This document shows positions 394 to 60,038 of a stretch of DNA of 60,892 bases, piece after piece. The notes beneath the pieces were generated by a model, which was given only the letters and a program-made list of their open reading frames with translations, had not been told where the DNA came from and did no database searches. How positions within the stretch are numbered: position 1 is the stretch's first letter; each line of letters begins with the position of its first letter. Source of the stretch: a virus; IMG/VR virus record IMGVR_UViG_3300005529_000040, positions 1 to 60,892 of that record; one strand, given 5' to 3'. The translations under genes and the position numbers were made by a program.

Positions 394-1535
394 CAGTTCA
401 CCTCGCTTGGACGTTGAAACACCGTCTGCGCAGTCTCGCGCTGGGCGTCCTTCATCAAGTGGGTGTACACGTCCATTGTAACGCGCGCGCTCGAATGACT
501 GAGCCACTCCTGAGTATCTTTTACGCTCTTCGTCTTGTGATACACGATCGAGCCCGAGGTATGCCGCAACAGGTGCAGCCCGTCCGCGCGTGGTCCTAGG
601 TCGAGCTTGAGCCGGTCGCGCAGGACTGTCTGCAGCGTCGTCCGCAGATCGTCGGGGTTCGCCGGCCGACCGCTCGAGGACGCGAAGATGTAATCGGCAG
701 GTCGGGTCCGTGGGGACATCTGTTTGTGCAGCTCAAGGGCTCGGGTGAGCTCGGCAGTCATGGGGCGCGGCCGAACGCTCGCGACGGTTTTGGTCACATC
801 AGCGTGGCCCCGGTAGATCTTGCGCCGGACGTAAAACACACCCTCTGCAAAGTCGACGTCTTCCCACTTGAGGCCCAGGGCCTCGCCCATCCGTATACCG
901 GTGAAGAGCAGCACGCCATAGAACGCGCGCGAGCGTATGTACTCGGGCTTCGCGAGCTCGTCCCACAGCTGCCATGCTTGCTGCACAGACAGGGAGGGCT
1001 TCTCGTGGCGCTCGACCTGGGGAGCCATGCTTTTCTTTACGGGAGACTTGGGGATGAGCTCGAGCTCGTCAGCAGCGTAGGCGAACATCGTCGACAGAAT
1101 AGCGTGGATGGTACGGCGCGTCTTGTCGCTGAGCTCTTTTTGCTTTAGCCGGGCGTGGAAATCTGAAATATGAGCAGGCCGGACCTCGGCCAGTTTCATG
1201 TGATCAAAGTAGGGCCGGATGTGTTTGCTGACGAAACTGCCCTGGGTGATCTGCGTGCTGCCGCGCCAGTGTTCGTCGACGTAGCTCTTCCATTCCTTTT
1301 CCATGTAGCTAGCGAACGTACGTTCGGACGCTGGGACCGCGGCGTTGGTGTCAGGGCGGAACGCGCGCGAGAGTTCAGCTTGAGCTTGAACGTAGGTGCC
1401 GTGGACGGTTAGAGCGTGACGCTTGCGACCGACGTGACCGAAGCGCTCGCAGCCTTCGCAGCGCCACTTGATCAGGTAGACCTTGCCGCGCTCGCGTTCT
1501 TCGATCGTGCCGGTTCCTTGTTCGCGACGTTTCAT
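393..1535 (-). CDS. int: Tyrosine recombinase (phage integrase)
   Basis: A 380-aa site-specific recombinase for insertion into and excision from the host chromosome. The N-terminal 50 residues carry a CxxC...H cluster (CEGCERFGH), probably a small arm-binding domain. A core-binding helical domain follows, then the catalytic domain with all landmarks: the first Arg in TGIRMGE (about residue 212), HLLRH at 321-325, WLSH, and the nucleophile Tyr in MDVYTH at about 357. Length is normal for the family and it appears intact. It overlaps its upstream neighbour by ATGA and the downstream gene by one base, so translation is coupled. The tRNA-like half site lies about 270 bp beyond its stop, which suits an attP position. 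Confidence 0.95.
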   Translation of the reverse strand: MKRREQGTGTIEERERGKVYLIKWRCEGCERFGHVGRKRHALTVHGTYVQAQAELSRAFRPDTNAAVPASERTFASYMEKEWKSYVDEHWRGSTQITQGSFVSKHIRPYFDHMKLAEVRPAHISDFHARLKQKELSDKTRRTIHAILSTMFAYAADELELIPKSPVKKSMAPQVERHEKPSLSVQQAWQLWDELAKPEYIRSRAFYGVLLFTGIRMGEALGLKWEDVDFAEGVFYVRRKIYRGHADVTKTVASVRPRPMTAELTRALELHKQMSPRTRPADYIFASSSGRPANPDDLRTTLQTVLRDRLKLDLGPRADGLHLLRHTSGSIVYHKTKSVKDTQEWLSHSSARVTMDVYTHLMKDAQRETAQTVFQRPSEVN

Positions 1536-1774
1536 GGATGCTCCTCCACGTATTTTTTGATAGTTCCTATCTGCGCCAAGAAAAGCACCACCTTGCTACA
1601 TGGCGCAGTGTTCAACTTTATCCAGCCGTTTGGCAAGCGGCCGTCCGGCCATTCGTGTCGAGTGTGAGCAGCGCCATGACCAAGTCGCAATGCTTCAACG
1701 TAAACATTCGTTGGCTGAGCGTGCAAAACTTCATTAAAGAAAGGAACGTCATACCAAATGTCGCGCTGGATCAT
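1532..1774 (-). CDS. Hypothetical protein between xis-like gene and integrase
   Basis: An 80-aa protein ending in an ATGA overlap with the integrase start. A GAGGAAGAAG ribosome-binding site precedes the chosen ATG. An upstream in-frame ATG would give 109 aa but would run into the preceding gene. No family recognised and no membrane segment. Position in a tightly coupled operon suggests a role in integration control or lysogeny, by inference only. Confidence 0.6.
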   Translation of the reverse strand: MIQRDIWYDVPFFNEVLHAQPTNVYVEALRLGHGAAHTRHEWPDGRLPNGWIKLNTAPCSKVVLFLAQIGTIKKYVEEHP

Positions 1775-1784
1775 CTCTTCTTCC

Positions 1785-1952
1785 TCATTGGGAATCCTTC
1801 GCCGAAAACGATGAGTGCTTGACCAAAAGCTCGAGATCAACAGGCCCAATGCCCGAGCCAAACGCCACTGGGTTCTGAACTCCTGCCTCTTTGACTCTCA
1901 AGTAGTTAGCCAGAAAGATGTCTGACCAAACGCGTTTGAATTCTTCGTTCAT
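1785..1952 (-). CDS. Small hypothetical protein (55 aa) in integrase operon
   Basis: Frame read directly from the sequence: starts MNEEFKRVWSDIFLANYL and ends FSAKDSQ. It has a very strong ribosome-binding site (GGAGGAAGAAGAG) and its ATG overlaps the stop of the HTH gene (ATGA). Short, acidic to neutral, no known domain. The same GAGGAAGAAGAG string also precedes the next gene, which may reflect local duplication of the leader. Confidence 0.6.
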   Translation of the reverse strand: MNEEFKRVWSDIFLANYLRVKEAGVQNPVAFGSGIGPVDLELLVKHSSFSAKDSQ

Positions 1953-2209
1953 CTCTTCTTCCTCCAGTCGATTTCGTGTTGCTCGATCCAGGCCAGGATC
2001 GCTTTGCGCCGGAAGCGTATGCGCGGCTTTGAGCCGGTCCCGAACGGAATGTGGGGGAGCTGACGGTAGTTCAGATACACCCAGTTCGGGTGAACACCCA
2101 ACAGCTCGGCGACTTCTTTCGCGTCGAGCAGGCAGTCTGCACAGTCAGAGGGAGCGGCGGCTTCGGGCAAGCGATCGTGCTCGGCGAGTGTGATCGGTCC
2201 GCGATTCAT
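1949..2209 (-). CDS. Helix-turn-helix protein, excisionase/MerR-like
   Basis: An 86-aa DNA-binding protein of the HTH_17/excisionase type. Residues about 28-80 (LLDAKEVAELLGVHPNWVY, then a wing with KPRIRFRRKAILAWIEQH) match the winged helix of small excisionases and MerR-like regulators. It is the first gene of the leftward operon ending in int, so it probably directs excision or regulates int. Its ATG lies only about 3 bases after the likely transcription start, so the mRNA may be leaderless; no ribosome-binding site is seen. Confidence 0.75.
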   Translation of the reverse strand: MNRGPITLAEHDRLPEAAAPSDCADCLLDAKEVAELLGVHPNWVYLNYRQLPHIPFGTGSKPRIRFRRKAILAWIEQHEIDWRKKR

Positions 2210-2218
2210 GAGGCCCCG

Positions 2219-2246
2219 AATATATCATGCGAGCGCCAGATTTCAA
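2219..2246 (-). promoter_or_regulatory. Predicted promoter for the excisionase-integrase operon
   Basis: On the minus strand there is TTGAAA, a 16-bp spacer and TATATT. The ATG of the HTH gene follows 9 bases after the -10 box, so the transcript would start almost on the start codon. Confidence 0.5.
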
Positions 2247-2303
2247 AGAACTTTATTCGGAAAATCATTTCCATTTGCTGTGCAGAATGTTGCGTAATTA
2301 CAG

Positions 2304-2319: not shown

Positions 2320-2378
2320 AATTACTGAGATTTAATCGCGCGGAGTTTGGCAGCGCAAGTGCTCTAATTCGTCGCATT

Positions 2379-2865: not shown

Positions 2866-2911
2866 GGGATTGAGCGCAGGGACCGGATCTTTTGTCATCT
2901 CTGTGCAGTGA
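2753..2911 (+). CDS. Small zinc-ribbon protein
   Basis: A 52-aa protein from an ATG preceded by GGGAG. It carries CKQCQ and CQCPVC pairs (residues about 15-32) that form a one-domain zinc ribbon. No catalytic part. Such proteins often contact nucleic acid or a larger partner, but its role here is unknown. It overlaps the doubtful frame starting at 2650. Confidence 0.5.
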   Translation: MEEPVLSAGSEAHLCKQCQAPINETCQCPVCRVLTGIEGLSAGTGSFVISVQ

Positions 2912-4825: not shown

Positions 4826-5332
4826 ATGAACCGAACTTTCGCTCTCGTCCTCTGCGTAGCCTTGGCTGGTTGCGCTGGCACCTCGAGTCCGCCTAACACG
4901 CCGCCGGTTACGACGAACCTGACCAAGGCGCCCTGGACCATCACCTTGGCCGGCGGGGACGGCAGCGTCATTACGGCCTCCCTTCAGTCTGCACAGACAT
5001 GCTCTGCCGTCACCGGGCCAGCGTGCTTTATGGCCGCGCAGCTGAACGCCAACGACCCGGGCAATCCTGGGGCAGCCCAGGCTCTCGAGGTGGGTGTGCC
5101 GGTTAACCCCGTCCCGAATGGCAAGGGCGGTGGGTACGGCATGGCGTTCGACTTCCAGTATCAGGTCAGCACGGACAATCATGGCCTGTGGTATCTCGAC
5201 GGCCAGGGGAGCTTCCAGAAGGACGGGACGATCGCCGGCACCTGGACCTGCGATTCACAGACCCCGGCATGTGGCCCGGTCGCGTACCCTACAGCCGGCC
5301 TGAGCGGGACGTTTACGGCAGTCCAGCAATAG
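4826..5332 (+). CDS. Predicted lipoprotein
   Basis: A 168-aa exported protein with a lipoprotein signal (MNRTFALVLCVALAGCAG): a short basic start, a hydrophobic core and lipobox LAGC with Cys 16 as the lipidation site. The mature part is rich in Gly, Thr, Ser and Pro and has two probable disulfide pairs, consistent with a beta-sandwich. It would be anchored on the periplasmic side of a membrane. Prophage lipoproteins often block superinfecting phages or alter the lysogen surface. That is inference; no family is recognised. It is the last gene of this cluster. Confidence 0.65.
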   Translation: MNRTFALVLCVALAGCAGTSSPPNTPPVTTNLTKAPWTITLAGGDGSVITASLQSAQTCSAVTGPACFMAAQLNANDPGNPGAAQALEVGVPVNPVPNGKGGGYGMAFDFQYQVSTDNHGLWYLDGQGSFQKDGTIAGTWTCDSQTPACGPVAYPTAGLSGTFTAVQQ

Positions 5333-5553: not shown

Positions 5554-6531
5554 CTATGCGTCGGCCCCTTCGTCCGGCCGAACCTTCCGGTAAGGACCAC
5601 GTTCAACCGGCTGCCGAAGCTGCTTTGTTTGGACTGCTCGAGTAAGCAGATTATAAAGGGTCGACTTGCTGTGAACCCCGATCGCTATCCCGATATCCTT
5701 CGCGTCGAAGTTCTTGTCGAACGGGGCCGCGGCCAGCCACTCGTCGAACTTCTGCCGTGCAGACTTGACGGGCGCCTTCCGGACCAACAGACCGTCCTTG
5801 AACCCCAGCTCAAAGAAGTCGTTCTTGCCGTTCCTTCGAAGAATGGAGATCGTCCTGGCATCGCCGGTCGACTCGGGATCCTTTTCTTCGATCACTACGA
5901 CCGTGGAAGAATACCCAGCCCAGGAGACTGAGCCAGCTATTCTTTGGCGCGGGTTCAGGAACCGTTCCCCTTCTCGCGTCTTCGAGACGTGCGCCGTCCC
6001 GATGATCGTCACTCCGCGCTGTTCGCAGAACTCGCCCAGGCCACGCATGAACTGTGCGGTGACTTTTAGATCGTTCACTTTCCCTTCCGGCGTCTTGGTC
6101 TGAATACCCTCAATCACGAACATCTTGATTTTCGGGTTCTTGTCCAGATAGGAAGCCAGGTCCGCGCGCAGCCCGTTCTGAAACGTGCTCGAGGGCGGGG
6201 CATAGAAGTTGAATTTTGACGCGTCGATGTTCATTCGAGCGCAGGTGTCGTTGAAATCGAGCTGGCCGCGGTCGTATGAAATCCACATGAACGGCGGCAG
6301 TTCTTCCTTGTAGCCCAGGACAGAACGGCCCTTCATCCAACCATCGAACCATTGGAGAAGCAGGGTTGTTTTGCCGGCGCCAGACGCACCACCGACAAGG
6401 TGAACACGGCCGTGAGGAAACATCTGCGGCGCCTTCTCTTGTGCAGACTGAGTTTCTGGTTCGTCGTCAAATGGGTTAGGGTCACGATCGTCCGGCGGAA
6501 GGGACGATGTTTCGAATACGTCTTCGGACAT
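5554..6531 (-). CDS. RepA-like hexameric helicase / RecA-fold ATPase
   Basis: A 325-aa ATPase. Acidic, disordered first 35 residues. Walker A GGASGAGKT ends at residue 55, the Walker B strand is KMFVIEGIQTK, followed by a GTAHVSKTR sensor-like strand, as in RepA/DnaB-type helicases (AAA_25). The C-terminus (KDIGIAIGVHSKSTLYNLL) resembles a helix-turn-helix. It probably unwinds DNA at the phage fork, working with the primase and polymerase encoded to the right. It is oddly alone on the minus strand among rightward genes. CAGGAGAT precedes its ATG. An anti-repressor-type ATPase is less likely. Confidence 0.75.
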   Translation of the reverse strand: MSEDVFETSSLPPDDRDPNPFDDEPETQSAQEKAPQMFPHGRVHLVGGASGAGKTTLLLQWFDGWMKGRSVLGYKEELPPFMWISYDRGQLDFNDTCARMNIDASKFNFYAPPSSTFQNGLRADLASYLDKNPKIKMFVIEGIQTKTPEGKVNDLKVTAQFMRGLGEFCEQRGVTIIGTAHVSKTREGERFLNPRQRIAGSVSWAGYSSTVVVIEEKDPESTGDARTISILRRNGKNDFFELGFKDGLLVRKAPVKSARQKFDEWLAAAPFDKNFDAKDIGIAIGVHSKSTLYNLLTRAVQTKQLRQPVERGPYRKVRPDEGADA

Positions 6532-7222: not shown

Positions 7223-8209
7223 GTGAATCTCGATCTCGACGCAATCATTTCCGAAATTGTGGCAAGTGGGGTAAGTCCCGTCGCGGCCGAAGCGGGCGCC
7301 AACCTCGTGGACTCGTGGATCAGCGAAAAAGGCTCTCAGGACATGACACGCCGCGTCATCGCGGTTGAGCTTGGGTTCATGCTCTGGCTTGATGACCTGA
7401 CGGTCGCGATCGGCGTGCAGGATGCTGTGTTCCACGAAGCTCTCGGACATCTCGGCGGCGAATGGAAGAGCGCCAAGGAACCCAAGAAAGACGCCCGAGG
7501 CCGCGAGACATCCTGGTGGAACGAGGACGTATGGCGACGTGAGCTAAGTTCAGGTCCGCAGGTCGGCCTGTACGCCCTGGCGCTCCAGCGCGCGACATAC
7601 ATCGAACGAAAAACCGGCCGCAAGTTTGTCTTCGATGAACCGAACCCGCGCATTCTTATCCGCGCCGCCGTCAAAGCGAACCCCGTACGTTTTTGGCCAT
7701 CCGACCCCACGGATCCCGAGACGCCTGAGATCTTCAGCTTCGACCAGGCTGCTCTTGACTCAATCGCAAACGGCATCCGTGCTAAAGCTGCACAGATCAG
7801 ATGTGCGCGGCGCGCTGGCTTGGTGCCCTGGCAACTGCCCGGGGATCATTGCTTCTCGTTCGGGCGCACTTGCCAGTTCTACGACAAATATTGCAAAACT
7901 CGTGTTCATCCGATCGTTCTGGATGCGAATGACAAAATCATCGCCAAGTTCGATGCGAATGATCCCGCGGCGCAGGCTGCGCTTCCGTATATCGATCCGG
8001 ACAAGTTGTCGAATCCGGACCTCGTAATCATTTCAGCGTCTCAGTACAAAACTGCGAGCTCGTGCCTCGAGAAATATCGCATTCAAAACGGCTCCCTTGT
8101 CGAGGAGACGAAGGAAGAGTCGTTGGCTTTGGACACAGGAACGGCGATGCACGCCGGCCTCGCAGAATTCTATCGACAGGTGAAAACATGGCAGGAAAAG
8201 ACAGCGTAG
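7223..8209 (+). CDS. PD-(D/E)XK (RecB/Cas4-like) nuclease with permuted motif order
   Basis: A 328-aa predicted DNA nuclease from a GTG start. Core motifs appear early: VQDAV (acidic metal ligand), GEWKSAK (the E-x-K, about residues 78-84), then QVGLYALA (QxxxY). Next comes a Cys cluster CFSFGRTCQFYDKYC (about 213-227), like the Fe-S ligands of Cas4/AddB-type nucleases. The last 65 residues (SASQYKTASSCLEKYRI, then GTAMHAGLAEFYRQ) look like the segment that normally begins this fold. So the N-terminal module seems to be at the C-terminus. Probable role: end processing in phage recombination with the Sak4-like ATPase nearby. Fusion to a truncated second copy is the alternative. Confidence 0.7.
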   Translation: MNLDLDAIISEIVASGVSPVAAEAGANLVDSWISEKGSQDMTRRVIAVELGFMLWLDDLTVAIGVQDAVFHEALGHLGGEWKSAKEPKKDARGRETSWWNEDVWRRELSSGPQVGLYALALQRATYIERKTGRKFVFDEPNPRILIRAAVKANPVRFWPSDPTDPETPEIFSFDQAALDSIANGIRAKAAQIRCARRAGLVPWQLPGDHCFSFGRTCQFYDKYCKTRVHPIVLDANDKIIAKFDANDPAAQAALPYIDPDKLSNPDLVIISASQYKTASSCLEKYRIQNGSLVEETKEESLALDTGTAMHAGLAEFYRQVKTWQEKTA

Positions 8210-8715
8210 AGAAATTAGTTCGTCTGTGCAACGCAAAACTCTTGCAACAGGAAATAAGTGCGACTTCGGTGGTGTTGAATGATCTTGCTTTCGCAAAAGC
8301 CCCTGGCGGAAAAGATCATCACCACAACTACGAAGGCGGGTTGGCAGAACACACGCTCGAAGTCGCTGCACTGGCAATGCGCTTTGCAAGCGGGTTCTAC
8401 GAAGAGCATTACGCCCTTATTGCTGCCATCTTCCACGACTACGGCAAGATCTATGACTACGCATTCGACCAAGAAAACAAAATCGTCAGCACGCCGTTCC
8501 AGAAGGACGTCGGACATCTCGTTTGGAGCTGGGAACAGTTTCGGGAGATCGCACGAGATAAAGGACTGTTTCCTCAGGCGATCGACAAAATTAGTCACGC
8601 TATTCTCGCGCACCACGGCCGGCGTGAGTGGGGATCGCCGGTTGAACCGATGACACCTCTGGCCTGGGCTCTGCACAGTGCAGACATGCTTTCGTCGCGC
8701 GGCTTCAAATTGTAG
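8188..8715 (+). CDS. HD-domain phosphohydrolase, YhaM-like
   Basis: A 175-aa protein. The ATG chosen overlaps the nuclease gene by 22 bases and follows AGGTGAAA. The HD signature is complete: EGGLAEHTLEV (first His), IFHDYGK (His-Asp), HAILAHHG, and HSADMLSS (last Asp). The order and spacing resemble YhaM-type 3'-5' exonucleases without the OB domain, so RNA or ssDNA ends, or nucleotides, are possible substrates. Two divalent metals would be bound. Ends just before the second TGTGCCAGAT promoter. Confidence 0.75.
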   Translation: MAGKDSVEKLVRLCNAKLLQQEISATSVVLNDLAFAKAPGGKDHHHNYEGGLAEHTLEVAALAMRFASGFYEEHYALIAAIFHDYGKIYDYAFDQENKIVSTPFQKDVGHLVWSWEQFREIARDKGLFPQAIDKISHAILAHHGRREWGSPVEPMTPLAWALHSADMLSSRGFKL

Positions 8716-8780: not shown

Positions 8781-9776
8781 GTGGCAACTGACGCGATCTC
8801 TCCTTCTGTGCAGAATCAGCCTGTTGGCAAAGTTTCAGCGGCTCCGACGCCTGCAAAGCCTTCTGTTCCGCCTGCCTCGTCTCCTGGCACGACGCCGGCC
8901 GCAACCACCTCTCTTGCGGCCGGCGTCAATGCGGTGGTCGGTCAAAAGGTCATCGTGCCGAAGGGTATTCGAGCGTTCAACACGCAAGACTTGAAAAAAG
9001 AAGTTTCGTTCTTCCGCGGCATGTTGTACGGCGAGACTGACAGCCGCAAGACGACAACGGCCGCGGACTTTGGTGGACCGGAGAGAACGTTCATCATCGG
9101 GACTCGCGCCGCCGAGCAATTGCTCCCGCTGCAAGAAAGAAGTTTCCACGTTGCATTGATCGATGATGGTCCGGCGTTGAGCTGGGCGCTTCAATATCCC
9201 GATCAAGCGGCGCGCGCGTTTGGCTTCCCCGAGTTTGCGGATATGTTGGCTGCGCCTGACGCCGAGCCTGTCTTGATGGTCGACGACATGACCGAGGGCG
9301 CGAACTTTTTGGTCGACGACAACTCCACGCGAGATGACGGATCGGACGTAAAGGACGGCCGGCAGATCTATAAAGCCGTGAACGACAATCTACGTGAGAT
9401 CATGTCGAGCCTGAAGCGTCGCCGGATGCATCTGGTGCTGACTGCTCTTGCCAAGAAGTTCGAAACGCCTCTCGCTAACGAGGAAGCGATTGGACCGGAC
9501 ATGCCAACCGGCGCGCGGTCGATCATCACCGCGGATCTTGAGCACGTCCTGTTCATGAAGAAGTCGACGCATAAATTCATCACGCGGCCGATGTACATCA
9601 ACTACAAAAAGAAAGACGAAAAGGGCAAGGACCAGCTGTACAAGCGTGAGATTTTTGCCAAGAACAAGCTGCCGAAGGAACTCGCCCTACGTCAGCCGCC
9701 GGTTCTGAATCTCTCCGGCGAAGAAGACATGGACCTGCGCGCTTACTGGAACAAAGTCAAGCCGCCAAAAAAGTGA
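8781..9776 (+). CDS. RecA-like ATPase, Sak4-type (phage nucleotide-binding protein)
   Basis: A 331-aa protein from a GTG 6 bases after AAAGG. The first 55 residues are a disordered Pro/Ala/Thr-rich linker. The ATPase core has P-loop MLYGETDSRKTTTA (about residues 78-91), a Walker B-like EPVLMVDDM, and LVLTALAKKFET. This arrangement fits the AAA_24 / Sak4 single-strand-annealing partners found in many phages, which help recombine or repair ends. The P-loop has Arg where a Gly normally precedes the Lys. A nuclease and an HD hydrolase lie upstream. Confidence 0.7.
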   Translation: MATDAISPSVQNQPVGKVSAAPTPAKPSVPPASSPGTTPAATTSLAAGVNAVVGQKVIVPKGIRAFNTQDLKKEVSFFRGMLYGETDSRKTTTAADFGGPERTFIIGTRAAEQLLPLQERSFHVALIDDGPALSWALQYPDQAARAFGFPEFADMLAAPDAEPVLMVDDMTEGANFLVDDNSTRDDGSDVKDGRQIYKAVNDNLREIMSSLKRRRMHLVLTALAKKFETPLANEEAIGPDMPTGARSIITADLEHVLFMKKSTHKFITRPMYINYKKKDEKGKDQLYKREIFAKNKLPKELALRQPPVLNLSGEEDMDLRAYWNKVKPPKK

Positions 9777-9868: not shown

Positions 9869-10136
9869 TCTTTTAGATTTTACCGGCCAGCAGTTCAAGG
9901 AAGTCACGCAGGCTTTTTCCGATCGAACTGCCGCCGGGGACAAAATTCTGGAAGCAACGTTCCAGGCGTTAGCCGTTCTGCCAGAGTTTAACGAACGTTT
10001 CTACGACATCGCCGCACGCACCGGGCTTGATGTCACCAGTCCGATTGTGCAGCAAAGCATTCGCGCAATGGCGATCTCGTTCTTTTTGTACGGCGAGGCT
10101 CTCGGTCGTATCGAAGCCCCGCGAGTAGTGAATTAG
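9852..10136 (+). CDS. Hypothetical helical protein
   Basis: A 94-aa protein. The ATG follows GGATGGG; an upstream TTG would add 15 residues. Several amphipathic helices (SLLDFTGQQFKEVTQAFSD onward), no Cys, no membrane segment. No family recognised. Lies between the Sak4-like ATPase and the next recombination-region gene, so it may be a partner of these. Confidence 0.55.
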   Translation: MENINSLLDFTGQQFKEVTQAFSDRTAAGDKILEATFQALAVLPEFNERFYDIAARTGLDVTSPIVQQSIRAMAISFFLYGEALGRIEAPRVVN

Positions 10137-11053: not shown

Positions 11054-12576
11054 CCACGACAGCCCTCAAAGAGATTTCGTGGACTCCGTTTCAACAAGCA
11101 ATTTTTGACTTCGTTGAAAATGGAGAAGGCTCGGCCGTTGTTGAGGCCGTTGCTGGAAGCGGCAAGACGACCACGATCGTTGAAGCCGCGCGGCGTCTAC
11201 CTTTCGGCACTGAGGGCGCCTTCGTCGCATTCAACCGTGTTATCGCCGACGAGTTGAAACGCCGGTTACCGGCAAGCGTGCCTGCCATGACGCTGAACGC
11301 TCTGGGCAACCGCGCGTGGAAAGCGTTCATTGGCAAATATCCCGAGGTCGACGGCTACAAGATCTCAGCGCTGGTGCGTGACATGACCAGCAACAACGAT
11401 CGCGATTTCGTAGGCGACGTAAAGAAACTCATCGACCTGGCAAAAGGCATTGGCTTGGTCCCAGGGAATCTCGTCCGAACATCATGGGGTGAAGCACGCG
11501 GTCTGGTTCCTGACTCCGACCAAACCTGGCAAGATCTCATGGACGAGCATGATATCTCGTTCAAGTTTCCTGGGCAGGAAAAGGACGCACTGTCGCTGGC
11601 CCGTCGGGTCCTTCTCGAGTCGATTCGGGTTTCTCGAGACAAGATCGATTTCAACGACCAGCTGTATTTGCCAGTTGTGTTCCGCGCGCCGTTCAAGAAG
11701 TATGACCTGCTCTTCGTTGACGAAGCTCAGGACGTGAACGCGATTCAGCTCGAGATGATTGAGCGCAGTCTGCACAAGCAGGGACGATTGATCGCCGTCG
11801 GGGATCCGCACCAAGCGATCTATGGTTTCCTCGGCGCAGGAACTGACTCGCTCGAAATCATTCGAGAAAAATTCAACGCTGCGATGATGCCGTTGCACGT
11901 CAGTTTTCGTTGCCCGCGCAAGGTCGTGCAGAAAGCGCGGACGTACGTGTCCCATATTCAACACAAGGACGATGCCCCAGAAGGCGACGTCAAAGTGTGG
12001 GGCTCAGCGTGGAGCAGCGACGACTTTCAGCCGACGGATGTCATCCTGTGCAGAAATAACGCGCCGCTGATCTCAATGGCTTTCAAGCTCATTCGAGACG
12101 GGGTCGGGGTGAAAGTGTTGGGACGTGACATCGGCCGCGGACTGATCGCGCTGGTGAACAAGCTGAAGGCTACGGATACGAATGATCTCCGGCGAAAGCT
12201 GTTGGACCATTTGGACAAGGAAAGCAAGAAGCTGCGCGACAAGCCTGATCAGATCGCCAGGCTCGAGGATCGCGTCGCAACGTTGATGATCTTTATCAAC
12301 GCCCAGGACAATCTGTCGTCTGTGCAGAATGTCATCGCGTCGATCGAGAAGCTGTTTTCGACGGATGACGCAAACGAAAACAAGCAACTGTTGACTTTGT
12401 CAACGGTGCATAAAGCCAAGGGTGGCGAGTGGCCGCGGGTGTTCATTTTGAACCCAGGCCTGATGCCGGCTGGCTGGGTTGAGCCAGGCACCTGGCAGTA
12501 CGACCAAGAGATTCATCTGCAGTATGTAGCTGTGACCCGAGCGCAAAAAGAATTGATCTACATCGAAATGGAGTAG
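11050..12576 (+). CDS. UvrD/PcrA-type superfamily 1 DNA helicase
   Basis: A 508-aa ATP-driven helicase. Motif I AVAGSGKTTT (about residues 30-39), motif II FVDEAQD (about 221-227), motif III VGDPHQAIYGF, motif IV VSFRCPRKV, motif V TVHKAKGGEWPRVF and motif VI YVAVTRAQKELIY are all present, so it should be active. It is shorter than host UvrD (about 720 aa), with reduced 1B/2B domains as in many phage versions. Likely role: 3'-5' unwinding in replication or recombination, distinct from the RepA-like replicative helicase. A longer frame upstream is rejected because the ATGA overlap with the preceding small gene sets the start. Confidence 0.9.
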   Translation: MTTTALKEISWTPFQQAIFDFVENGEGSAVVEAVAGSGKTTTIVEAARRLPFGTEGAFVAFNRVIADELKRRLPASVPAMTLNALGNRAWKAFIGKYPEVDGYKISALVRDMTSNNDRDFVGDVKKLIDLAKGIGLVPGNLVRTSWGEARGLVPDSDQTWQDLMDEHDISFKFPGQEKDALSLARRVLLESIRVSRDKIDFNDQLYLPVVFRAPFKKYDLLFVDEAQDVNAIQLEMIERSLHKQGRLIAVGDPHQAIYGFLGAGTDSLEIIREKFNAAMMPLHVSFRCPRKVVQKARTYVSHIQHKDDAPEGDVKVWGSAWSSDDFQPTDVILCRNNAPLISMAFKLIRDGVGVKVLGRDIGRGLIALVNKLKATDTNDLRRKLLDHLDKESKKLRDKPDQIARLEDRVATLMIFINAQDNLSSVQNVIASIEKLFSTDDANENKQLLTLSTVHKAKGGEWPRVFILNPGLMPAGWVEPGTWQYDQEIHLQYVAVTRAQKELIYIEME

Positions 12577-13261: not shown

Positions 13262-14304
13262 TCGATAAGCCGTCACAATGCTTCGCCTCCGGTTGTCCGC
13301 TCGCGGTTCTGTGCAGGCATTGTGAAAAACCGTTGGAGGAACACGTTGAAAAGAAGTGCGCTGACGGTAAGTCGTTTGAATCGCTTGGACGAGGATTTGT
13401 TCTTGGAACTGGAGACCCTGCTAAGGCAAAGTATGCATTCGTTCTCGAAGCTCCAGGTCGCGAAGAACTCTCATTCAAGATCCAGGCAGTCCCTGGAAGA
13501 TCTTTTTTCTCGGATCCGGCAGAGGTCGAGCGCGAGATTTCGACGCGCAGGCGCGACTATCCGGACGTCCCCGTCGAGTATCTGACGCGTGGGGCGCCGG
13601 TAGTCGGACAGAGCGGTGCAGCGTTGTTTGGTTGGATCTTGCCCAAGGCAGGCATCAAGCGTGATGAAAACGTCTATCTCGACAACACGATTCGGTGCCT
13701 CCCTCCGAAAAACGCACAGGGAGCGTACTACCCAACTGGAGAAGTTAAAAAGGGAGCTGAGCGTTGCTGTCGGCAATGGGACCGAATCGAAGCCTACCGG
13801 CCTGACGTTCTCGTCTTTGGACTTCATCCTGCAGGAATACTACGAGAGATTACACCCCTTCCTCTCGCAGTCCGAGATGCTGAAAAAGTTCGAGACTTCA
13901 CGAATGCGGGACGCCGCGTACTCGCCCTATTGGGAGGAAAAGCTACTCAGGCGTTTGCTCGATACGGAAGCAACATCAGCAAATGGAGAGGACATTACAT
14001 TACGTTGGCTGCAGACTGGGCGAAGACATACAAGCAGCTCTTCGAGTACGTCGCGAAGCGTAACGCCAGAAAGCGTAAAGCCGTGAGCGAAGAGACTGAC
14101 ATCTGGGGTGTGCCTCAAAGTGTGGTCGATCGTGCTCGGGAAAAGAACACGCGGCCGGACGAGCTGAATCCGGTCGCGTGTAAGAGTTTCAAACGTTACC
14201 AGGGCAAGCGTGCGCCGAAATGCGGTTGCGCGCCGTGCTGGGACAAATACGAGGAGCTTCACAATGTCCAAAACACAACAGCCGTTTCCGAAGAAACTCG
14301 CTGA
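13258..14304 (+). CDS. Uracil-DNA glycosylase superfamily protein
   Basis: A 348-aa protein. N-terminal Cys cluster (CFASGCPLAVLCRHC) resembles Fe-S or zinc ligands. The UDG core has FVLEAPGREE (the GEAPG-like water-activating motif), VVGQSGAALFGWIL, YLDNTIRCLPP, and LALLGGKATQAF, in the order of family 4/5 enzymes. The final His-containing motif is less typical (KWRGHYITL). A C-terminal extension has more Cys (KCGCAPC). It would remove uracil from DNA or act on another modified base. Longer than typical family 4 enzymes (about 200-230 aa). Confidence 0.7.
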   Translation: MIDKPSQCFASGCPLAVLCRHCEKPLEEHVEKKCADGKSFESLGRGFVLGTGDPAKAKYAFVLEAPGREELSFKIQAVPGRSFFSDPAEVEREISTRRRDYPDVPVEYLTRGAPVVGQSGAALFGWILPKAGIKRDENVYLDNTIRCLPPKNAQGAYYPTGEVKKGAERCCRQWDRIEAYRPDVLVFGLHPAGILREITPLPLAVRDAEKVRDFTNAGRRVLALLGGKATQAFARYGSNISKWRGHYITLAADWAKTYKQLFEYVAKRNARKRKAVSEETDIWGVPQSVVDRAREKNTRPDELNPVACKSFKRYQGKRAPKCGCAPCWDKYEELHNVQNTTAVSEETR

Positions 14305-41230: not shown

Positions 41231-41349
41231 ACGCTTTTCCTTAATACGACAGGCGCTGCCGTGAGGCTACGCTGCGTGGGCTGTGAGCAATGACCTGGCT
41301 GCACAGGAAGAGGCTCATGTATTCGTCGAAATTGGCAGCAAGAAAATCG

Positions 41350-48735: not shown

Positions 48736-49170
48736 TTATTTCTGTGCAGAAGCATTTTTGAGCTCTTCGAGCATTTGATCGCTCGCTTCCTTCAGCTCGT
48801 CAGTGAGCTCAAGCCCAGCATCGTCATAGAGGGTGTTCATGGTCTCACCGTACAGCTCGCCGAGCTCTTTCTCGCGCTCTTTCCAACGTTCCTCGGCCTT
48901 TTTCTCGCGCTCGGACGCTTCCTTCCGCCCGATCGACGTGACTTCCGGCAGGCCAGTGCTGGTCATGAAAGCGTCAAGCTGATGGTCCGCACGTTCCTGG
49001 GCTTCCTCGAATTTCTTGCGATAGAATTCGATCTCGCTGTAGGCTTTGTCGGCACGCTCTTTCTGCACAGCAAGACGCTCCTCGAGCGCGACAAGCTTCT
49101 GTGCAGCTAACTGTTCCTGCAAAGCCATTTCCTGAGCGGTTAAGATGGTGTAGCCGAAAAGTTTCCTCAT
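48736..49170 (-). CDS. Coiled-coil protein
   Basis: A 144-aa protein from the ATG after AAAGGAAATTCA, which overlaps the upstream stop (ATGA). Nearly all heptad-repeat helix (EMALQEQLAAQKLVALEERL onward). Between portal and terminase; might be an assembly or packaging aid. Confidence 0.55.
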   Translation of the reverse strand: MRKLFGYTILTAQEMALQEQLAAQKLVALEERLAVQKERADKAYSEIEFYRKKFEEAQERADHQLDAFMTSTGLPEVTSIGRKEASEREKKAEERWKEREKELGELYGETMNTLYDDAGLELTDELKEASDQMLEELKNASAQK

Positions 49171-49328
49171 TGAATTTCCTTTCCACAAAAAACACAGCTG
49201 GTTGTCCACGTGGGTTCGGGTTTGGTCCACCAATAGATTGCTCCGATGACGTGAGGCAGTCCGTAATTCGGATGCTGGCCATCACGACCGCCGGCTCTGC
49301 ACAGATCAGGAGTTTTGCGTTCTGCCAT
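49167..49328 (-). CDS. Small CxxC protein (53 aa) after terminase
   Basis: Read directly: starts MAERKTPDLCRAGGRDGQ and ends SCVFCGKEIQ. Its ATG shares a base with the terminase stop (TAATG) and its TGA overlaps the next ATG. Coupled on both sides, so very likely real. One CxxC pair plus an earlier Cys; possible zinc or redox role. Confidence 0.6.
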   Translation of the reverse strand: MAERKTPDLCRAGGRDGQHPNYGLPHVIGAIYWWTKPEPTWTTSCVFCGKEIQ

Positions 49329-50993: not shown

Positions 50994-51254
50994 TTAGTGC
51001 CGGACGCTTCCGAACCCACCATGACTGTGCAGCAAGCTATTCGCCGGCGTCGGTTGCGTCGGAAACTTCGGCAAGGGAGACAACTGAGGTCCCAAGCTCG
51101 ATTTCGGCATGCTGGCGTTCATTCTGGGCATCGATTCGCCGCCGTGCGAGGGCATTCTGAGCTTCGGAGGCGCAATCGCGTTGCCTGATTTGGCTGCGCG
51201 CGGTAGCAGCGAGTTGATTGAAGTCCGCGGATGAAGTGCGTCGTTTCCGAACAT
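50994..51254 (-). CDS. Hypothetical disordered protein
   Basis: An 86-aa Pro/Ser/Met-rich protein. Composition is low complexity. An alternative frame over the same stretch gives a more helical protein, but it has no usable start codon. Kept at moderate confidence. Confidence 0.4.
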   Translation of the reverse strand: MFGNDALHPRTSINSLLPRAAKSGNAIAPPKLRMPSHGGESMPRMNASMPKSSLGPQLSPLPKFPTQPTPANSLLHSHGGFGSVRH

Positions 51255-51665: not shown

Positions 51666-51947
51666 TTATTTCCTCACTTGAGAAAGTCCACTGCTGCCTA
51701 ACGGTTTCATCCACTCTTGCAACGTCGCGTCCGGAATCCGGTGCTCGCCCTTAATTGGCGGGTGCGGACTGGTCACGCGCGTCAATGGGTTCAAATCGTA
51801 CGGAGGCTTCGTCTGCACAGGAGCTGGAGCGTTCTGGGCTTGGATGTTCTGCTTGATCGCTTTCGAAGACTCGAGAGCTTCATCGCCGATGCCTGCGACA
51901 CCTTTGACCTGGTTGACGTAATTCCGGATCGAATCGAGCGCGCTCAT
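51666..51947 (-). CDS. Hypothetical protein
   Basis: A 93-aa protein: helical first half (SIRNYVNQVKGVAGIGDE), Pro-rich second half. Starts 2 bases after the upstream stop. No family recognised. Confidence 0.5.
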   Translation of the reverse strand: MSALDSIRNYVNQVKGVAGIGDEALESSKAIKQNIQAQNAPAPVQTKPPYDLNPLTRVTSPHPPIKGEHRIPDATLQEWMKPLGSSGLSQVRK

Positions 51948-52300: not shown

Positions 52301-52978
52301 CTACTCTTTTTCGTCTTCGTCGGAATCTTCGTCCTGTTCAAGGAGCTTCATGTTGTCGGTGAACTCACCGGCTGGGGTTTCGCCTACGACATTGTCGCCC
52401 AGACCCATGTTGTCCAGGCCTTGCTTGAGATTCACGATCGGCAGCTCGGTGGGTTTGTTGTTCTCGGAGACGTTCTTCGAGCCAAAGCCGAATGCTGTCG
52501 CGAGGATCTTGGCGGCAAGAGCTTTTTCGCGAGGGCTTCCGTTGTAATAGTCGTTCCACAGGGAAGCGACGAAACGTTTCTTGGCATCGTCGTCCAGGCC
52601 GATGCGGTTGAGCATTCGCTGAACGGCCGCTTGGATCGCAGGGTGCGAACGCCAATAATGCGCGAGCGTCGCCTGGTCCAGGGCAGACTTGCCTTTGGCG
52701 ATTTCGGCCGCGGCGCCTTGGTAGTTGAACGTGTGCTTGTACACGATGTCGGCGATGTGATCAGCAACCGCATCGTCTTCGACGTTGTACTCGTCTGTGA
52801 TTTTCTTCAGCTGCACAGGAGAGATGCGCGGATAGGCTTCGACCAGGGGCATTGTGGGCCGGGCGCGCTTCTTTCCTGTCGGGGCGGGCTGTTCGGGCTC
52901 ATCGAGCACGCGAGCGTTCTTCTGGGCCTCGCGGTAGTGCTTGTTGTATTCGCGCTTCGCGTCACCTTGTAAAGGCAT
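52301..52978 (-). CDS. Putative terminase small subunit
   Basis: A 225-aa protein. Basic start, then a helical domain (AVADHIADIVYKHTFNYQGA, GKSALDQATLAHYWRSHPAI) that could be an HTH DNA-recognition region, a second helical part for oligomerisation, and a very acidic C-terminal tail. It lies a few small genes upstream of the large terminase, the usual order. No decisive signature. Confidence 0.5.
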   Translation of the reverse strand: MPLQGDAKREYNKHYREAQKNARVLDEPEQPAPTGKKRARPTMPLVEAYPRISPVQLKKITDEYNVEDDAVADHIADIVYKHTFNYQGAAAEIAKGKSALDQATLAHYWRSHPAIQAAVQRMLNRIGLDDDAKKRFVASLWNDYYNGSPREKALAAKILATAFGFGSKNVSENNKPTELPIVNLKQGLDNMGLGDNVVGETPAGEFTDNMKLLEQDEDSDEDEKE

Positions 52979-53514: not shown

Positions 53515-53809
53515 TGGTAGCCCCTGAAGCTGTTGGCTGCGTCTCAGTCTGTGCAGCTACTTGTTCGTTGGCTGCTTTCGCTTCGGCAGTGGTCGGGCTC
53601 GCCTCTGGAGTCGGATTCTCCAAGACAGCTGACGCGAGGTACTCAGTGTCGTGATCTTCAAGAGCTTCGCAAAACAGCTTCGCGTACTCTTCGGCTTCGG
53701 TGCGCGTGCCCTTGAAGTCCAGGTTGAAGCGTTGGACGCCTTGAGTAAGTTGAACGGTATGGCTCCAGGTCGGATCACCTGAGCCGGATTGGATGATGCT
53801 GACTTTCAT
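53498..53809 (-). CDS. Hypothetical protein
   Basis: A 103-aa protein: a beta-alpha N-terminal half (HTVQLTQGVQRFNLDFKG, then AEEYAKLFCEALED) and a disordered Ala/Thr/Glu tail. Start overlaps the upstream stop by ATGA. No family recognised. Confidence 0.55.
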   Translation of the reverse strand: MKVSIIQSGSGDPTWSHTVQLTQGVQRFNLDFKGTRTEAEEYAKLFCEALEDHDTEYLASAVLENPTPEASPTTAEAKAANEQVAAQTETQPTASGATNGETD

Positions 53810-54060: not shown

Positions 54061-54386
54061 TTGGGCTCCACCTTCTTGACATGGACGTTTTCACAGTCAA
54101 CGTGGCGCGTGATCACGTAGCTGCAGCCCGGGCCTTCGAGCTGGACCGTAAAGCCGGAGCAGACGAGTTTCTCGCCGATGGGACCTCGGCACTCGGTTGT
54201 CGGCGTCAGGTCGATCGCCTTGACGTGGCATTGCGCGGGATCCTTAAGCTGCACAGAGGTGATGCAGGCCCGCGGAATGACGCGCTCGAGCACGGTCACG
54301 GCTTGTGGGAGCGGGGCGCCGACTGGCTCCTGGGCGCCGGCGAGGGACGTCAGAATGATCAGGGCGAGGATGAGGGCTCGGATCAT
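54057..54386 (-). CDS. Exported protein with signal peptide
   Basis: A 109-aa protein. Signal peptide MIRALILALIILTSLAGA with cleavage likely after Ala-Gly-Ala. Mature part has six Cys, probably disulfides in the periplasm. GGGATGGGG precedes the ATG, which overlaps the upstream stop. Made early in the late operon; may alter the envelope or block superinfection. No family recognised. Confidence 0.6.
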   Translation of the reverse strand: MIRALILALIILTSLAGAQEPVGAPLPQAVTVLERVIPRACITSVQLKDPAQCHVKAIDLTPTTECRGPIGEKLVCSGFTVQLEGPGCSYVITRHVDCENVHVKKVEPK

Positions 54387-54862: not shown

Positions 54863-54872
54863 GTCTGCACAG

Positions 54873-55821: not shown

Positions 55822-56360
55822 TGTCCAAGCTCACGCACGACTTTCGCCCGAAGCGAATCCGGCCCGATCTTTGCGAAACGTGTGGCGGAATGAAGATCAC
55901 CGCCGAGCACGGCTATGACATGAAAGCCGAGGTCGCCAAGCAAACACTCGATCACCTCATTCGCATACAAGACGCGCTCGACGCGCTCGACGACACATCG
56001 TGCATCACGCGCGCCGATTTCGTCGAAGCCAACAAGCGCGACGTTCAGCACTTGTACGCCGCAGCATGGGAAGACGCGCGAAAGCTCGTCCGTGAGCATG
56101 GTAGCTTGCGCTCAGCGGCACAATACATCGCAAAACGCATCGACGCGTTACGTACGCCTGACTTCACTGTGCAGAATGAAGGCACCATATACCTGCTCAC
56201 GCCGCACACGGATGCGGCTCGTGAATGGGTGCAGGAACACATTGAAACCGACGACTGGTCAATAGGGCCGCAACACTTTGGAGACAGCATCGCGGTCGAC
56301 CACCGCTACATCGCGGATATCGTTCGCGGGATTCAAGCGGACGGATTGGAGGTGCGGTAA
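55821..56360 (+). CDS. Hypothetical protein with CxxCGGM zinc module
   Basis: A 179-aa protein. N-terminal module HDFRPK...CETCGGMKITAEHGYDM (residues about 6-33), also found in the gene at 59236. The rest is helical then alpha/beta (TIYLLTPHTDAAREWVQEHI). Stop and next ATG overlap (TAATG). Module probably binds zinc; the role is unknown. Confidence 0.6.
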   Translation: MSKLTHDFRPKRIRPDLCETCGGMKITAEHGYDMKAEVAKQTLDHLIRIQDALDALDDTSCITRADFVEANKRDVQHLYAAAWEDARKLVREHGSLRSAAQYIAKRIDALRTPDFTVQNEGTIYLLTPHTDAAREWVQEHIETDDWSIGPQHFGDSIAVDHRYIADIVRGIQADGLEVR

Positions 56361-58028: not shown

Positions 58029-59072
58029 ATGCTGACATTCACCATGAGCCGCACCGGAACGTTCGTTGCGAACTTCACATCTGCACAGAACCAGTGCGGT
58101 GGTGAGGGGCAACAGATCTACAACTACACGGTCGAGATCACCATCGGCGAGAGCCTGGACGATCACGGATTCGTGCTCGACAACTACAAAGTCCAAGAGT
58201 ATTTCGACCGCGAGTACAAACACGTCGAAGGTGCCCGTTCCTGCGAGCGCATCGCGCAAATCGCTGTCCACGACTTCCGCAACATGCTCGAGAACCGCGG
58301 ACGCGACGTTCACAGCATCCGCGTTACGATCGCGGGTTCGTCGTTCGCTGGCCTAACCGCGACCTGGACGAAAGAGCCGACAGGCGCTCTCGTGGCCGAG
58401 ATCAATCGATCCGGCGCTGTCATTCCCGTCGACAAAGATCCGAACAAAGTGCTCACCTGGCGTTCCGAAGAAGTCTTCCCTGATGACGCGATGCGGTACA
58501 AGTTCACAGGACGACCCGCGAACAACGTCGTCGCGCTGCAGAATGTTCCTGTTCCGCCGCCACCCCCAGCGCCCCAGGCTCCTGCTCTCACACAGGCACA
58601 TGAGTTCGTCTATAACTATCCACATCACAAGTTCCAGACCTGCCGCAAGTGTCACAAGAGCGATGTGTATTGTGGCTACTCAGGTGCGAAGTGTATCCCC
58701 GTCGCTGTGCCAGCTGCGCCTGCCTCGCCAGTCTGCGATTACTGCGGGCGGGCTGTTGAACCAGACACAGCAGAGGGAAATGGTACCAAGTGGTGGGTTC
58801 ACAGTGAAGCACCTAAGTTTTATGTCTGCTCTTCTTACGAAGACAAACCGTATGACGCGCACGCCACTGTCAACGGTTCTATGCACGTTCCCAACGCCAT
58901 TCTCTGCGATCACTGCCACCAGCCAGTCGAGTCCGACAACAATGTGGGACATTGGAACGAAGGCGCACAGTGGAAGCACGTCGGACGTTCGTACGTTTGC
59001 CGCAGCAACTTAGACCTATTCGCAACGGTCAACGGGCACGAAACCGTCTCCAAATCGCAGGTGCCAGCATGA
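58029..59072 (+). CDS. QueD/6-PTPS-like T-fold protein with C-terminal zinc ribbons
   Basis: A 347-aa protein. N-terminal 120 residues follow 6-pyruvoyl-tetrahydropterin synthase/QueD order: a strand with FVANFTSAQNQ, YNYTVEITIGESLDDHGFVL and DNYKVQEYFDREY, then EGARSCERIAQIAVHDF. The HGH zinc motif of active enzymes is replaced (YNYTVEI), so catalysis is doubtful. After a Pro-rich linker (PVPPPPPAPQAPA) come three Cys clusters (CRKCHKSDVYC, CDYCGRA, CDHCHQP). It might bind a pterin or deazapurine, or act on RNA/DNA; unproven. Confidence 0.5.
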   Translation: MLTFTMSRTGTFVANFTSAQNQCGGEGQQIYNYTVEITIGESLDDHGFVLDNYKVQEYFDREYKHVEGARSCERIAQIAVHDFRNMLENRGRDVHSIRVTIAGSSFAGLTATWTKEPTGALVAEINRSGAVIPVDKDPNKVLTWRSEEVFPDDAMRYKFTGRPANNVVALQNVPVPPPPPAPQAPALTQAHEFVYNYPHHKFQTCRKCHKSDVYCGYSGAKCIPVAVPAAPASPVCDYCGRAVEPDTAEGNGTKWWVHSEAPKFYVCSSYEDKPYDAHATVNGSMHVPNAILCDHCHQPVESDNNVGHWNEGAQWKHVGRSYVCRSNLDLFATVNGHETVSKSQVPA

Positions 59073-59167
59073 ACCGTTTGCGCGCCCTGCTCACACTCAT
59101 CGCTATCGTGCTCGGGCTCTGCCTGAGGCTCGACTTCGATCTGCACAGACGGATACACGGCCGCTAA
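59069..59167 (+). CDS. Small membrane peptide (32 aa)
   Basis: Read directly: MNRLRALLTLIAIVLGLCLR then basic residues. One membrane helix. ATGA overlap with the preceding gene. Function unknown. Confidence 0.5.
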   Translation: MNRLRALLTLIAIVLGLCLRLDFDLHRRIHGR

Positions 59168-59235
59168 AATTTCAGCATCCAAGTAGTCCTACTCCGGCGC
59201 CGGCACAGCGGCGTGGGGTGGAGGATTATAAAAAC

Positions 59236-59502
59236 ATGAAACACTCATTTGTTCCGAAATCATCTATTCCAACTATTTGCTCCTCTTGTGGCGGAATGCG
59301 TATAACAACTGATCACGGGTACGACATGATGAAAGAAGCGTCACGCGCTATCATGGACACTATACTTGATGTCCTGAAACTGGAATCCCCAGCGCGCATT
59401 CACCCGCGCTATCTACCAGAAGTTTGCGCATTACATTGCCAAAACAAACTACATTTGATAACCGCTAACCAAACAGTGATTAAGGTTACGCGAATACTGT
59501 AA
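59236..59502 (+). CDS. Hypothetical protein with CxxCGGM zinc module
   Basis: An 88-aa protein from the ATG about 11 bases after GGAGG. CSSCGGMRITTDHGYDMM repeats the module of the protein at 55821; the remainder is helical. Its end overlaps the remnant gene on the other strand. Confidence 0.6.
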   Translation: MKHSFVPKSSIPTICSSCGGMRITTDHGYDMMKEASRAIMDTILDVLKLESPARIHPRYLPEVCALHCQNKLHLITANQTVIKVTRIL

Positions 59503-59629
59503 GCTGACGATCCGCGCCGTTCGCAATCCGCTCACGTACATCGTGAGGCATGATAATGCATCCCTCTGAGCTTGTCTCGGGGTGCGTTGCTGATGCTCCA
59601 TGAATGCGGAAGTCTGCTCGGCCGGGCCG
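59486..59629 (-). pseudogene. Truncated second copy of the DUF2778 lysis-type gene
   Basis: On the minus strand an open frame reads ADFRIHGASATHPETSSEGC then IIMPHDVRERIANG and stops at TAA (59486-59488). This matches the C-terminal 40 residues of the protein at 23778 (DFRIHGASASDPEHSSEGC...IMPHDIRES) with many synonymous differences. Upstream of GRADF the similarity ends abruptly. No start codon or ribosome-binding site, so it is a fragment, not a gene. It lies on the strand opposite its neighbours. Confidence 0.8.
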
Positions 59630-59747
59630 CAGGACCGCCCTGCGCGCTCTCACTCTGTGCAGCGTGACATACCCACACTCACGCGTGCGCCTCGGAACGA
59701 ACCCGGCGCTGACCAGGCGTTCAAGATCGACCAGGACGAAGGGACGA

Positions 59748-60038
59748 ATGTCGACGCTGGCATCGGACTTCGATCACGCGACGCTCGACTACCTGCCGTT
59801 CACGTCGCTCGGTGACACAATAAAAAGCGACCAATTTGGCTCGGATGCATCTATACCCATGCAACCCAGCAACTCTGTTCTGATCGGATATCTCTGCTGT
59901 GCAGCGTCAGGCTCGAGTGGTCATCGACCACCAGTGTCCGAACCCACACACGTTTCCGACGGTGACACGATGATGATTGCATATTTGGCAACGTTCGTGC
60001 TGACAACGTTGATGTTCGTCCGCAGGAGGAAATTTTGA
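59748..60038 (+). CDS. Hypothetical protein with C-terminal membrane helix
   Basis: A 96-aa protein from an ATG after GAAGGGACG. Soluble N-terminal part, then MMIAYLATFVLTTLMFV followed by RRRKF, a tail-anchored layout. No family recognised. The 245 bases before it hold the lysis-gene remnant. Confidence 0.45.
   Translation: MSTLASDFDHATLDYLPFTSLGDTIKSDQFGSDASIPMQPSNSVLIGYLCCAASGSSGHRPPVSEPTHVSDGDTMMIAYLATFVLTTLMFVRRRKF

Follow-up and report, generated by a model that had tools for sequence, protein, structure and literature searches.

The window analysed here is the whole stretch of phage DNA, 60,892 nucleotides in length. Three of its replication genes are central to the interpretation:

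15209..17224 (+), phage DNA polymerase (phrog_17, 3.5e-51), which adjoins the primase gene and would extend primers
17651..18601 (+), AEP (archaeo-eukaryotic) primase of 316 aa, the proposed reader of the octamer described below (phrog_13901, 8.6e-40)
5554..6531 (-), candidate DnaB-like/RecA-fold helicase (phrog_239, 1.4e-12)

Sak4-like and exonuclease genes are also present. The primase consists of a Prim-Pol domain (aa 1-168, with the motifs DLD, SGRGFH and EVY..RY), followed by a helical C-terminal part. It matches the NrS-1-type primase structures 6k9a, 6a9w and 7rr3 at about 1e-16, and the segments DLD, SGRGFH and EVYRDGRY align with this type of enzyme, so that DxD, SxH and the third motif are all present. 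The helical C-terminus matched no Pfam HBD model; an RxDYxxRT segment is alignable. The C-terminal helices reach a pLDDT of 70-86 within an otherwise poor predicted model (mean pLDDT 44), which was not used for fold search.

The second feature of the window is a non-palindromic octamer. The exact count over the whole window and both strands gives 65 copies, 30 as CTGTGCAG and 35 as CTGCACAG, in agreement with the by-eye count of the earlier note. Their starts span positions 981 to 59897, with the last base at 59904. The exact matches on the plus strand are:

2278..2285 (+), CTGTGCAG site
2901..2908 (+), CTGTGCAG site
8806..8813 (+), CTGTGCAG site
12046..12053 (+), CTGTGCAG site, same place in G003
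12320..12327 (+), CTGTGCAG site
13309..13316 (+), CTGTGCAG site
15921..15928 (+), CTGTGCAG site
21481..21488 (+), CTGTGCAG site, also in G003
23320..23327 (+), CTGTGCAG site
23659..23666 (+), CTGTGCAG site
26473..26480 (+), CTGTGCAG site
28630..28637 (+), CTGTGCAG site
30675..30682 (+), CTGTGCAG site
31920..31927 (+), CTGTGCAG site
32869..32876 (+), CTGTGCAG site
34787..34794 (+), CTGTGCAG site
35490..35497 (+), CTGTGCAG site
37651..37658 (+), CTGTGCAG site
39126..39133 (+), CTGTGCAG site
40455..40462 (+), CTGTGCAG site, also in G003
45310..45317 (+), CTGTGCAG site
46435..46442 (+), CTGTGCAG site
47461..47468 (+), CTGTGCAG site, also in G003
48742..48749 (+), CTGTGCAG site
49099..49106 (+), CTGTGCAG site
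51025..51032 (+), CTGTGCAG site
53549..53556 (+), CTGTGCAG site
56167..56174 (+), CTGTGCAG site
59655..59662 (+), CTGTGCAG site
59897..59904 (+), CTGTGCAG site

Those on the minus strand are:

981..988 (-), CTGTGCAG site
2137..2144 (-), CTGTGCAG site
4989..4996 (-), CTGTGCAG site
7788..7795 (-), CTGTGCAG site
8671..8678 (-), CTGTGCAG site
14478..14485 (-), CTGTGCAG site
15806..15813 (-), CTGTGCAG site, also in G003
18126..18133 (-), CTGTGCAG site
18557..18564 (-), CTGTGCAG site
21214..21221 (-), CTGTGCAG site
23455..23462 (-), CTGTGCAG site
24681..24688 (-), CTGTGCAG site
27139..27146 (-), CTGTGCAG site
29337..29344 (-), CTGTGCAG site
30444..30451 (-), CTGTGCAG site
30876..30883 (-), CTGTGCAG site
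31479..31486 (-), CTGTGCAG site, also in G003
32256..32263 (-), CTGTGCAG site
35214..35221 (-), CTGTGCAG site
35706..35713 (-), CTGTGCAG site
35988..35995 (-), CTGTGCAG site
37784..37791 (-), CTGTGCAG site
41299..41306 (-), CTGTGCAG site
43442..43449 (-), CTGTGCAG site
44364..44371 (-), CTGTGCAG site
45018..45025 (-), CTGTGCAG site
48090..48097 (-), CTGTGCAG site
49063..49070 (-), CTGTGCAG site
49297..49304 (-), CTGTGCAG site
51813..51820 (-), CTGTGCAG site
52811..52818 (-), CTGTGCAG site
54249..54256 (-), CTGTGCAG site
54865..54872 (-), CTGTGCAG site
58081..58088 (-), CTGTGCAG site
59141..59148 (-), CTGTGCAG site

The 65 copies stand against an expectation of 2.5 from an order-3 Markov model, or 1.4 when the motif is masked. 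A maximal-order test based on 6- and 7-mers is uninformative, since the component 7-mers are themselves enriched by the octamer. The symmetric relatives are as scarce as previously described (CTGCGCAG, 4 copies; CTGTACAG, 2 copies). Bias in codons, dipeptides or oligonucleotides, the refuting explanation named in the earlier note, might in principle have produced the octamer, and a single codon phase (NCT-GTG-CAG or NCT-GCA-CAG) is indeed common to 48 of the 58 genic copies, across both orientations. The copies thus use more than one phase, as had been claimed, but are not evenly mixed among them. Shuffling of synonymous codons nevertheless yields only 3.4±1.8 octamers where 58 are observed, with a maximum of 10 in 300 shuffles, which excludes codon or dipeptide bias as the source. 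Among the one-mismatch words, moreover, TTGTGCAG alone is strongly enriched, both in the window and in the sister phage G003, and the bias explanation is left with practically no probability.

TTGTGCAG differs by C>T at position 1, which the octamer therefore tolerates, and occurs 12 times in the window against 1.8 expected:

724..731 (+), TTGTGCAG variant, long same-strand gap
6439..6446 (+), TTGTGCAG variant, long same-strand gap
10045..10052 (+), TTGTGCAG variant, long same-strand gap
18412..18419 (+), TTGTGCAG variant, long same-strand gap
19161..19168 (+), TTGTGCAG variant, long same-strand gap
24760..24767 (+), TTGTGCAG variant, long same-strand gap
43247..43254 (+), TTGTGCAG variant, long same-strand gap
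45403..45410 (+), TTGTGCAG variant, the only one near a same-strand site (93 b)
11770..11777 (-), TTGTGCAG variant, long same-strand gap
39053..39060 (-), TTGTGCAG variant, long same-strand gap
40485..40492 (-), TTGTGCAG variant, same-strand site 814 b away
46915..46922 (-), TTGTGCAG variant, long same-strand gap

These variants fill gaps in a strand-specific manner. Their distance to the closest site on the same strand is 1600 b, compared with 728 b for random placement, a value reached by none of 20,000 random sets, and they are not far from sites on the opposite strand. The exact octamers alone are weakly regular on each strand (CV 0.72/0.68; p 0.04 and 0.015), and inclusion of the variants lowers the CV to 0.54/0.57 (p 1e-4). 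In G003, per-strand spacing is not significantly regular (CV 0.79/0.85, p 0.10/0.22), nor do the T variants of this phage fill gaps.

The sequence directly 5′ of the octamer is also biased. The eight nucleotides from -1 to -8 are 69% pyrimidine in both the window and G003, compared with 50±3% for control words, and this excess holds for octamers sense or antisense to the gene. This is the position at which a primer would be templated, and pyrimidines there would favour purine primers. The tract is not seen upstream of TGTGGGCA. It was rejected as a general component of AEP sites, being present only in the window, G003 and RHEph04.

No phage record close to the window at the DNA level was found, and the comparison relies on three sister phages. 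The octamer occurs 65 times in the window, 70 times in G003, 4 times in G001 and once in G002. The AEP primase is encoded by the window and G003, whereas G001 and G002 have neither an AEP nor a Toprim_2 match, despite sharing other replication genes; among four sisters, this is a 2:2 comparison only. Only 6 of the 32 alignable sites are occupied at the same place in G003 (5 times background) while copy numbers are alike, which indicates that density is kept and positions turn over. The genome-wide distribution would also suit another DNA-binding protein of the phage, acting in packaging, partition, nucleoid formation or modification. However, of the genes that the window and G003 share and that G001 and G002 lack, no enzyme other than the primase is both well conserved and full-length; a spanin-like lysis gene comes next. 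No methyltransferase was found among the genes searched, and such a protein is a very unlikely reader.

The association extends to other phages. Of 22 phages carrying the AEP primase family, whose hosts range from Paracoccus to Acinetobacter and Vibrio, 14 have a TGTG word as their top-ranked octamer by enrichment; none of 11 unselected controls does. Jasmine, a control set aside after the fact, carries the word CTGTGGG and encodes a domain resembling Prim-Pol (PF09250, E 0.0023, below the cut-off; phrog_10514); kept as a control, it makes the count 1/12. In the other 8 of the 22 the word is not top-ranked, among 22 further IMG/VR loci with an AEP it ranks first in only 2, and Carvaje and Samy have a polymerase and an AEP with no motif. 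In most of the other IMG/VR contigs where octamers cluster, the copies are in-gene repeats. Two contigs without a detected AEP, G029 with 17 copies over 75 kb and G014 with 10 over 45 kb, are mildly enriched; both were selected by the clustered-octamer pattern itself. In the motif-bearing AEP phages, per-strand spacing is even, with a CV of 0.23-0.5 compared with about 0.9 at random: 0.23/0.31 in VpKK5, 0.28/0.29 in ParaR3, 0.42/0.26 in RHEph04 and 0.38/0.40 in AbaW9. No replichore-like switch of site orientation was seen in any phage examined.

These observations do not support the first candidates of the earlier note, namely an uptake sequence, Chi, a modification or packaging signal, or a copied host signal, for none of which would strand-wise spacing be expected. 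In the case of an uptake sequence, the host would take up CTGTGCAG-bearing DNA and the phage would have acquired its uptake signal. The density of about 1 per kb, the non-palindromic core and the extended flank resemble uptake sequences, and the similar codon usage of the window and G003, the closest pair (RSCU r 0.89), could mean a shared host. Alternatively, a Chi-type recombination signal of the host could shield phage ends from a host nuclease, in keeping with a non-palindromic octamer on both strands and with the Sak4-like and exonuclease genes. Neither gives a reason for the strand-specific gap filling, and the TGTG class tracks the primase across very different, unrelated hosts. A dense-motif pattern gave at least 116 matches in GTDB, and among the matches listed those with many copies were nearly all tandem repeats; the 20 whole genomes checked were at background level. 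The octamer density did not exceed 0.11 per kb in any genome checked, that is, the matches listed from a two-copy pattern scan of GTDB and the 20 whole genomes. A host search in GTDB genomes with the capsid protein found no relative. An uptake signal is thus unlikely, and a Chi-type signal is highly improbable.

The suggestion of the earlier note that is supported is a phage-wide site for one of the phage's own proteins, and the cross-phage association of word and primase, together with the strand-wise spacing, points to the AEP primase as the putative reader. We propose, with a probability of roughly three in four, that the octamers are template-recognition (priming) sites of this NrS-1-like enzyme. 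Several observations speak against it: the spacing in G003, the AEP phages that lack a TGTG word, the missing pyrimidine tract at TGTGGGCA, and the C-terminus with its poor model and no HBD match. CTGTGCAG includes GTG, the core described for AEP primases (PMC8076596, PMC8718748). As the fork exposes single-stranded DNA, the helical C-terminal part of the primase would bind the GTG-containing CTGTGCAG. With the CT and the pyrimidine tract immediately 5′ of GTG as template, the Prim-Pol domain would then start a short primer rich in purines, and the phage DNA polymerase would extend it. The sites may be kept on each strand, every 1.6-2 kb and thus at an Okazaki-like spacing, because each strand acts as the template of the lagging strand at some stage of the life cycle.

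Lagging-strand priming in bacteria and phages is usually pictured as loosely placed and based on very short cores. We lean towards a wider proposal: phages that encode both an AEP primase and a DNA polymerase of their own would write a long, primase-specific GTG word at regular per-strand distances, so that Okazaki starts would be genetically fixed and primase specificity readable from the genome. If so, fixed and strand-wise even 8-nt starts would allow Okazaki start points to be predicted in dozens of phages and provide defined templates for AEP/PrimPol enzymes. Such a mechanism would also explain the strong whole-genome word in phages of Pseudomonas, Xanthomonas, Burkholderia, Acinetobacter and Vibrio. 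A literature search for the octamer sequences found no mention of them, and the open literature searched held no description of such a whole-genome word.

Among known systems, the DNA uptake sequences of Neisseria and Pasteurellaceae have a similar density and a non-palindromic core, but they are host-encoded, have no tie to a phage primase and are not expected to be spaced strand-wise. The pRN1 primase ORF904 is an AEP, like that of the window; it requires the template 5′-GTG-3′, makes the first dinucleotide opposite the two bases directly 5′ of it and synthesizes an 8-nt primer (PMC8076596). Its site has only three bases and belongs to a small archaeal plasmid, for which no genome-wide array is described in the literature searched. 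The NrS-1 polymerase, a phage AEP enzyme homologous to the Prim-Pol domain of the window's primase, recognizes the 8-nt site TTTGGTTA as well as GTGA/GTGG and initiates at the first base upstream (PMC8718748). The NrS-1 genome, however, has only two copies of TTTGGTTA (PMC7102993), compared with 65 of another word here, which speaks against the proposed priming sites. T7 gp4 is a DnaG-type primase whose short core (5′-GTC with flanks) is common by chance, with no over-represented octamer; like the octamers of the window, its candidate sites are strung along the whole genome, about 26 being candidate active sites, a number that clustering reduces to 14, at distances of 1-6 kb (PMC12839067).

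The octamer CTGTGCAG, which the earlier note had described as repeated across the whole phage, is confirmed by an exact count of 30 copies on the + strand and 35 on the - strand of the 60,892-base IMG/VR virus record. It is the top enriched octamer of the window (z 36), with an excess of 17-47x: 26x over the order-3 Markov expectation (2.5), 47x over the motif-masked one (1.4), and 17x for the genic copies under a synonymous-codon shuffle (58 vs 3.4±1.8). Both orientations are present as claimed, but the differing codon phases held up only in part, as 48 of the 58 genic copies, in either orientation, share one phase. Among the one-mismatch words, TTGTGCAG, carrying T for C at position 1, is prominent (12 vs 1.8 expected).

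The capsid protein of the window retrieved three long relatives. The genome G003 (capsid 83% identical) contains 70 copies of CTGTGCAG, 35/35 by strand; G001 (79%) contains 4 and G002 (76%) a single one. In codon-aligned DNA, 6 of 32 window sites (19%, background 3.8%) have an exact copy at the same place in G003, and the remaining sites are lost there or lie elsewhere. Such copy numbers, together with the few same-place sites, indicate that the density is maintained in one lineage pair, the window and G003, while the positions turn over.

The following features of the window were considered:
393-1535, tyrosine-type integrase, without homolog in G003, G001 or G002, from which the virus may be temperate
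4253, 29506, 34998 and 52571, four widely separated copies of the palindrome GAAACGTTTC, which may act as operators or regulator sites
13333-14304, gene conserved across the four relatives, matching the Uracil-DNA-glycosylase superfamily (PF03167, 1.1e-6)
15209-17224, phage DNA polymerase gene, adjoining the primase gene
17651-18601, archaeo-eukaryotic primase (AEP)
23179-23781, weak similarity to Rz-like spanins (E 0.002), which suggests a host with an outer membrane

Among the window genes with a homolog in G003 and none in G001 or G002, 17651-18601 is the one well conserved full-length enzyme (54-58% identical); the others are small, one being spanin-like. The gene matches phrog_13901/1829, phage AEP primases by profile (6e-43) and NrS-1-type primase structures (~1e-16) in an alignment that includes the motifs DLD, SGRGFH and EVY..RY; these matches identify its product as an AEP primase. 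The AEP family search of the window and its relatives gave matches in the window and G003 only; neither a custom AEP profile nor a Toprim_2 search found a match in G001 or G002. A 75 kb contig, G029 (IMGVR_UViG_3300037400_001189), has 17 copies of CTGTGCAG vs 3.9 expected, with no AEP detected.

Reading of the word by the primase would predict that other phages encoding this enzyme have words of their own. Among 22 AEP phages, several of them related and representing about five word types, 14 have a TGTG word at the top of the octamer ranking, vs 0 of 11 unselected controls. The word is TGTGGGCA in PaMx42, KL1, RcTitan, Paracoccus R3, Langgrundblatt2 and Acinetobacter W9, TGTGGGCA together with CTGTGGGC in phiAxp-1, TGTGG[TC]CA in VpKK5, TGTGGTCA in PAJD-1, CTGTGG in RHEph04, and TGTGGACA in the IMG/VR loci L208-L210. 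No word was found in Carvaje, MJing1 and Samy, and words were weak or absent in the Gram-positive phages phi105, PSA and T25, which lack a polymerase of the tested kind. Of a further 22 IMG/VR loci taken as a second set, only 2 had a TGTG octamer in first rank. The word class tracks the primase across unrelated hosts; it is often present and not universal. In Arthrobacter phage Jasmine (L229), whose Prim-Pol-like domain is fused to a RecA-fold helicase, CTGTGGG has 47 copies, and their spacing is even on just one of the strands (33 sites, CV 0.59). Thermus phage phiMa (L232) has another strong whole-genome word, CTCGAGGC, with 94 copies over the two strands in 50 kb.

This cross-phage evidence makes a host signal, a less probable source of the octamer, unnecessary. 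The density of CTGTGCAG in 20 whole genomes is 0.11 per kb or less, a search of GTDB for a capsid relative indicating the host found none, and the pattern scan gave no motif-dense genome among the matches listed.

The per-strand spacing of sites is even in VpKK5 (CV 0.23 and 0.31), ParaR3 (0.28 and 0.29), RHEph04 (0.42 and 0.26) and AbaW9 (0.38 and 0.40), where random placement gives ~0.9, and this evenness exceeds that of almost every control hexamer with a comparable count. In VpKK5, same-strand gaps span 1.3 to 4.3 kb, with no shorter gap. As a result of such spacing, neighbouring sites alternate in orientation (combined z -7). In the window the effect is weaker than in these four phages (CV 0.72, 0.68; p 0.04, 0.015), and in G003 it is non-significant. 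The TTGTGCAG variants of the window are placed where the same strand is without a canonical site: their distance averages 1600 b vs 728 expected, a value matched by 0 of 20,000 random sets. Relative to opposite-strand sites there is no distance effect; canonical sites and variants together reach CV 0.54/0.57 (p 1e-4). Such gap filling would be required of a start signal that acts per strand, and it is hard to account for by an uptake sequence, a Chi site or bias.

The 8 nt upstream of CTGTGCAG are pyrimidine rich in both the window (69%) and G003 (70%), for sites along or against the gene alike, vs a mean of 50% (sd 3%) for control hexamers; a coding effect is ruled out. Position -1 is T/C in both genomes, and position +1 is A in G003 and A/C in the window. 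In Rhizobium phage RHEph04 (L219), three pyrimidines precede CTGTGG in 87-97% of cases, as in the window.

The best explanation, to which a probability of roughly three in four is given, is that the phage's AEP primase uses the octamers as priming sites. For the pRN1 primase a GTG in the template is indispensable; the enzyme binds it with its helix bundle and places the first dinucleotide opposite the two bases directly 5' of GTG, producing a primer of 8 nt (PMC8076596). The NrS-1 polymerase uses TTTGGTTA and GTGA/GTGG, starting at the first base upstream (PMC8718748). Transferring this scheme to the window, we infer that GTG(CAG) of the octamer would be bound by the phage primase, and that the primer would begin opposite CT and continue along the pyrimidine tract, so that it would be purine rich. 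Primase recognition sites are already known as a kind; the open literature searched appears to contain no description of a long word maintained throughout a genome at even spacing on each strand.
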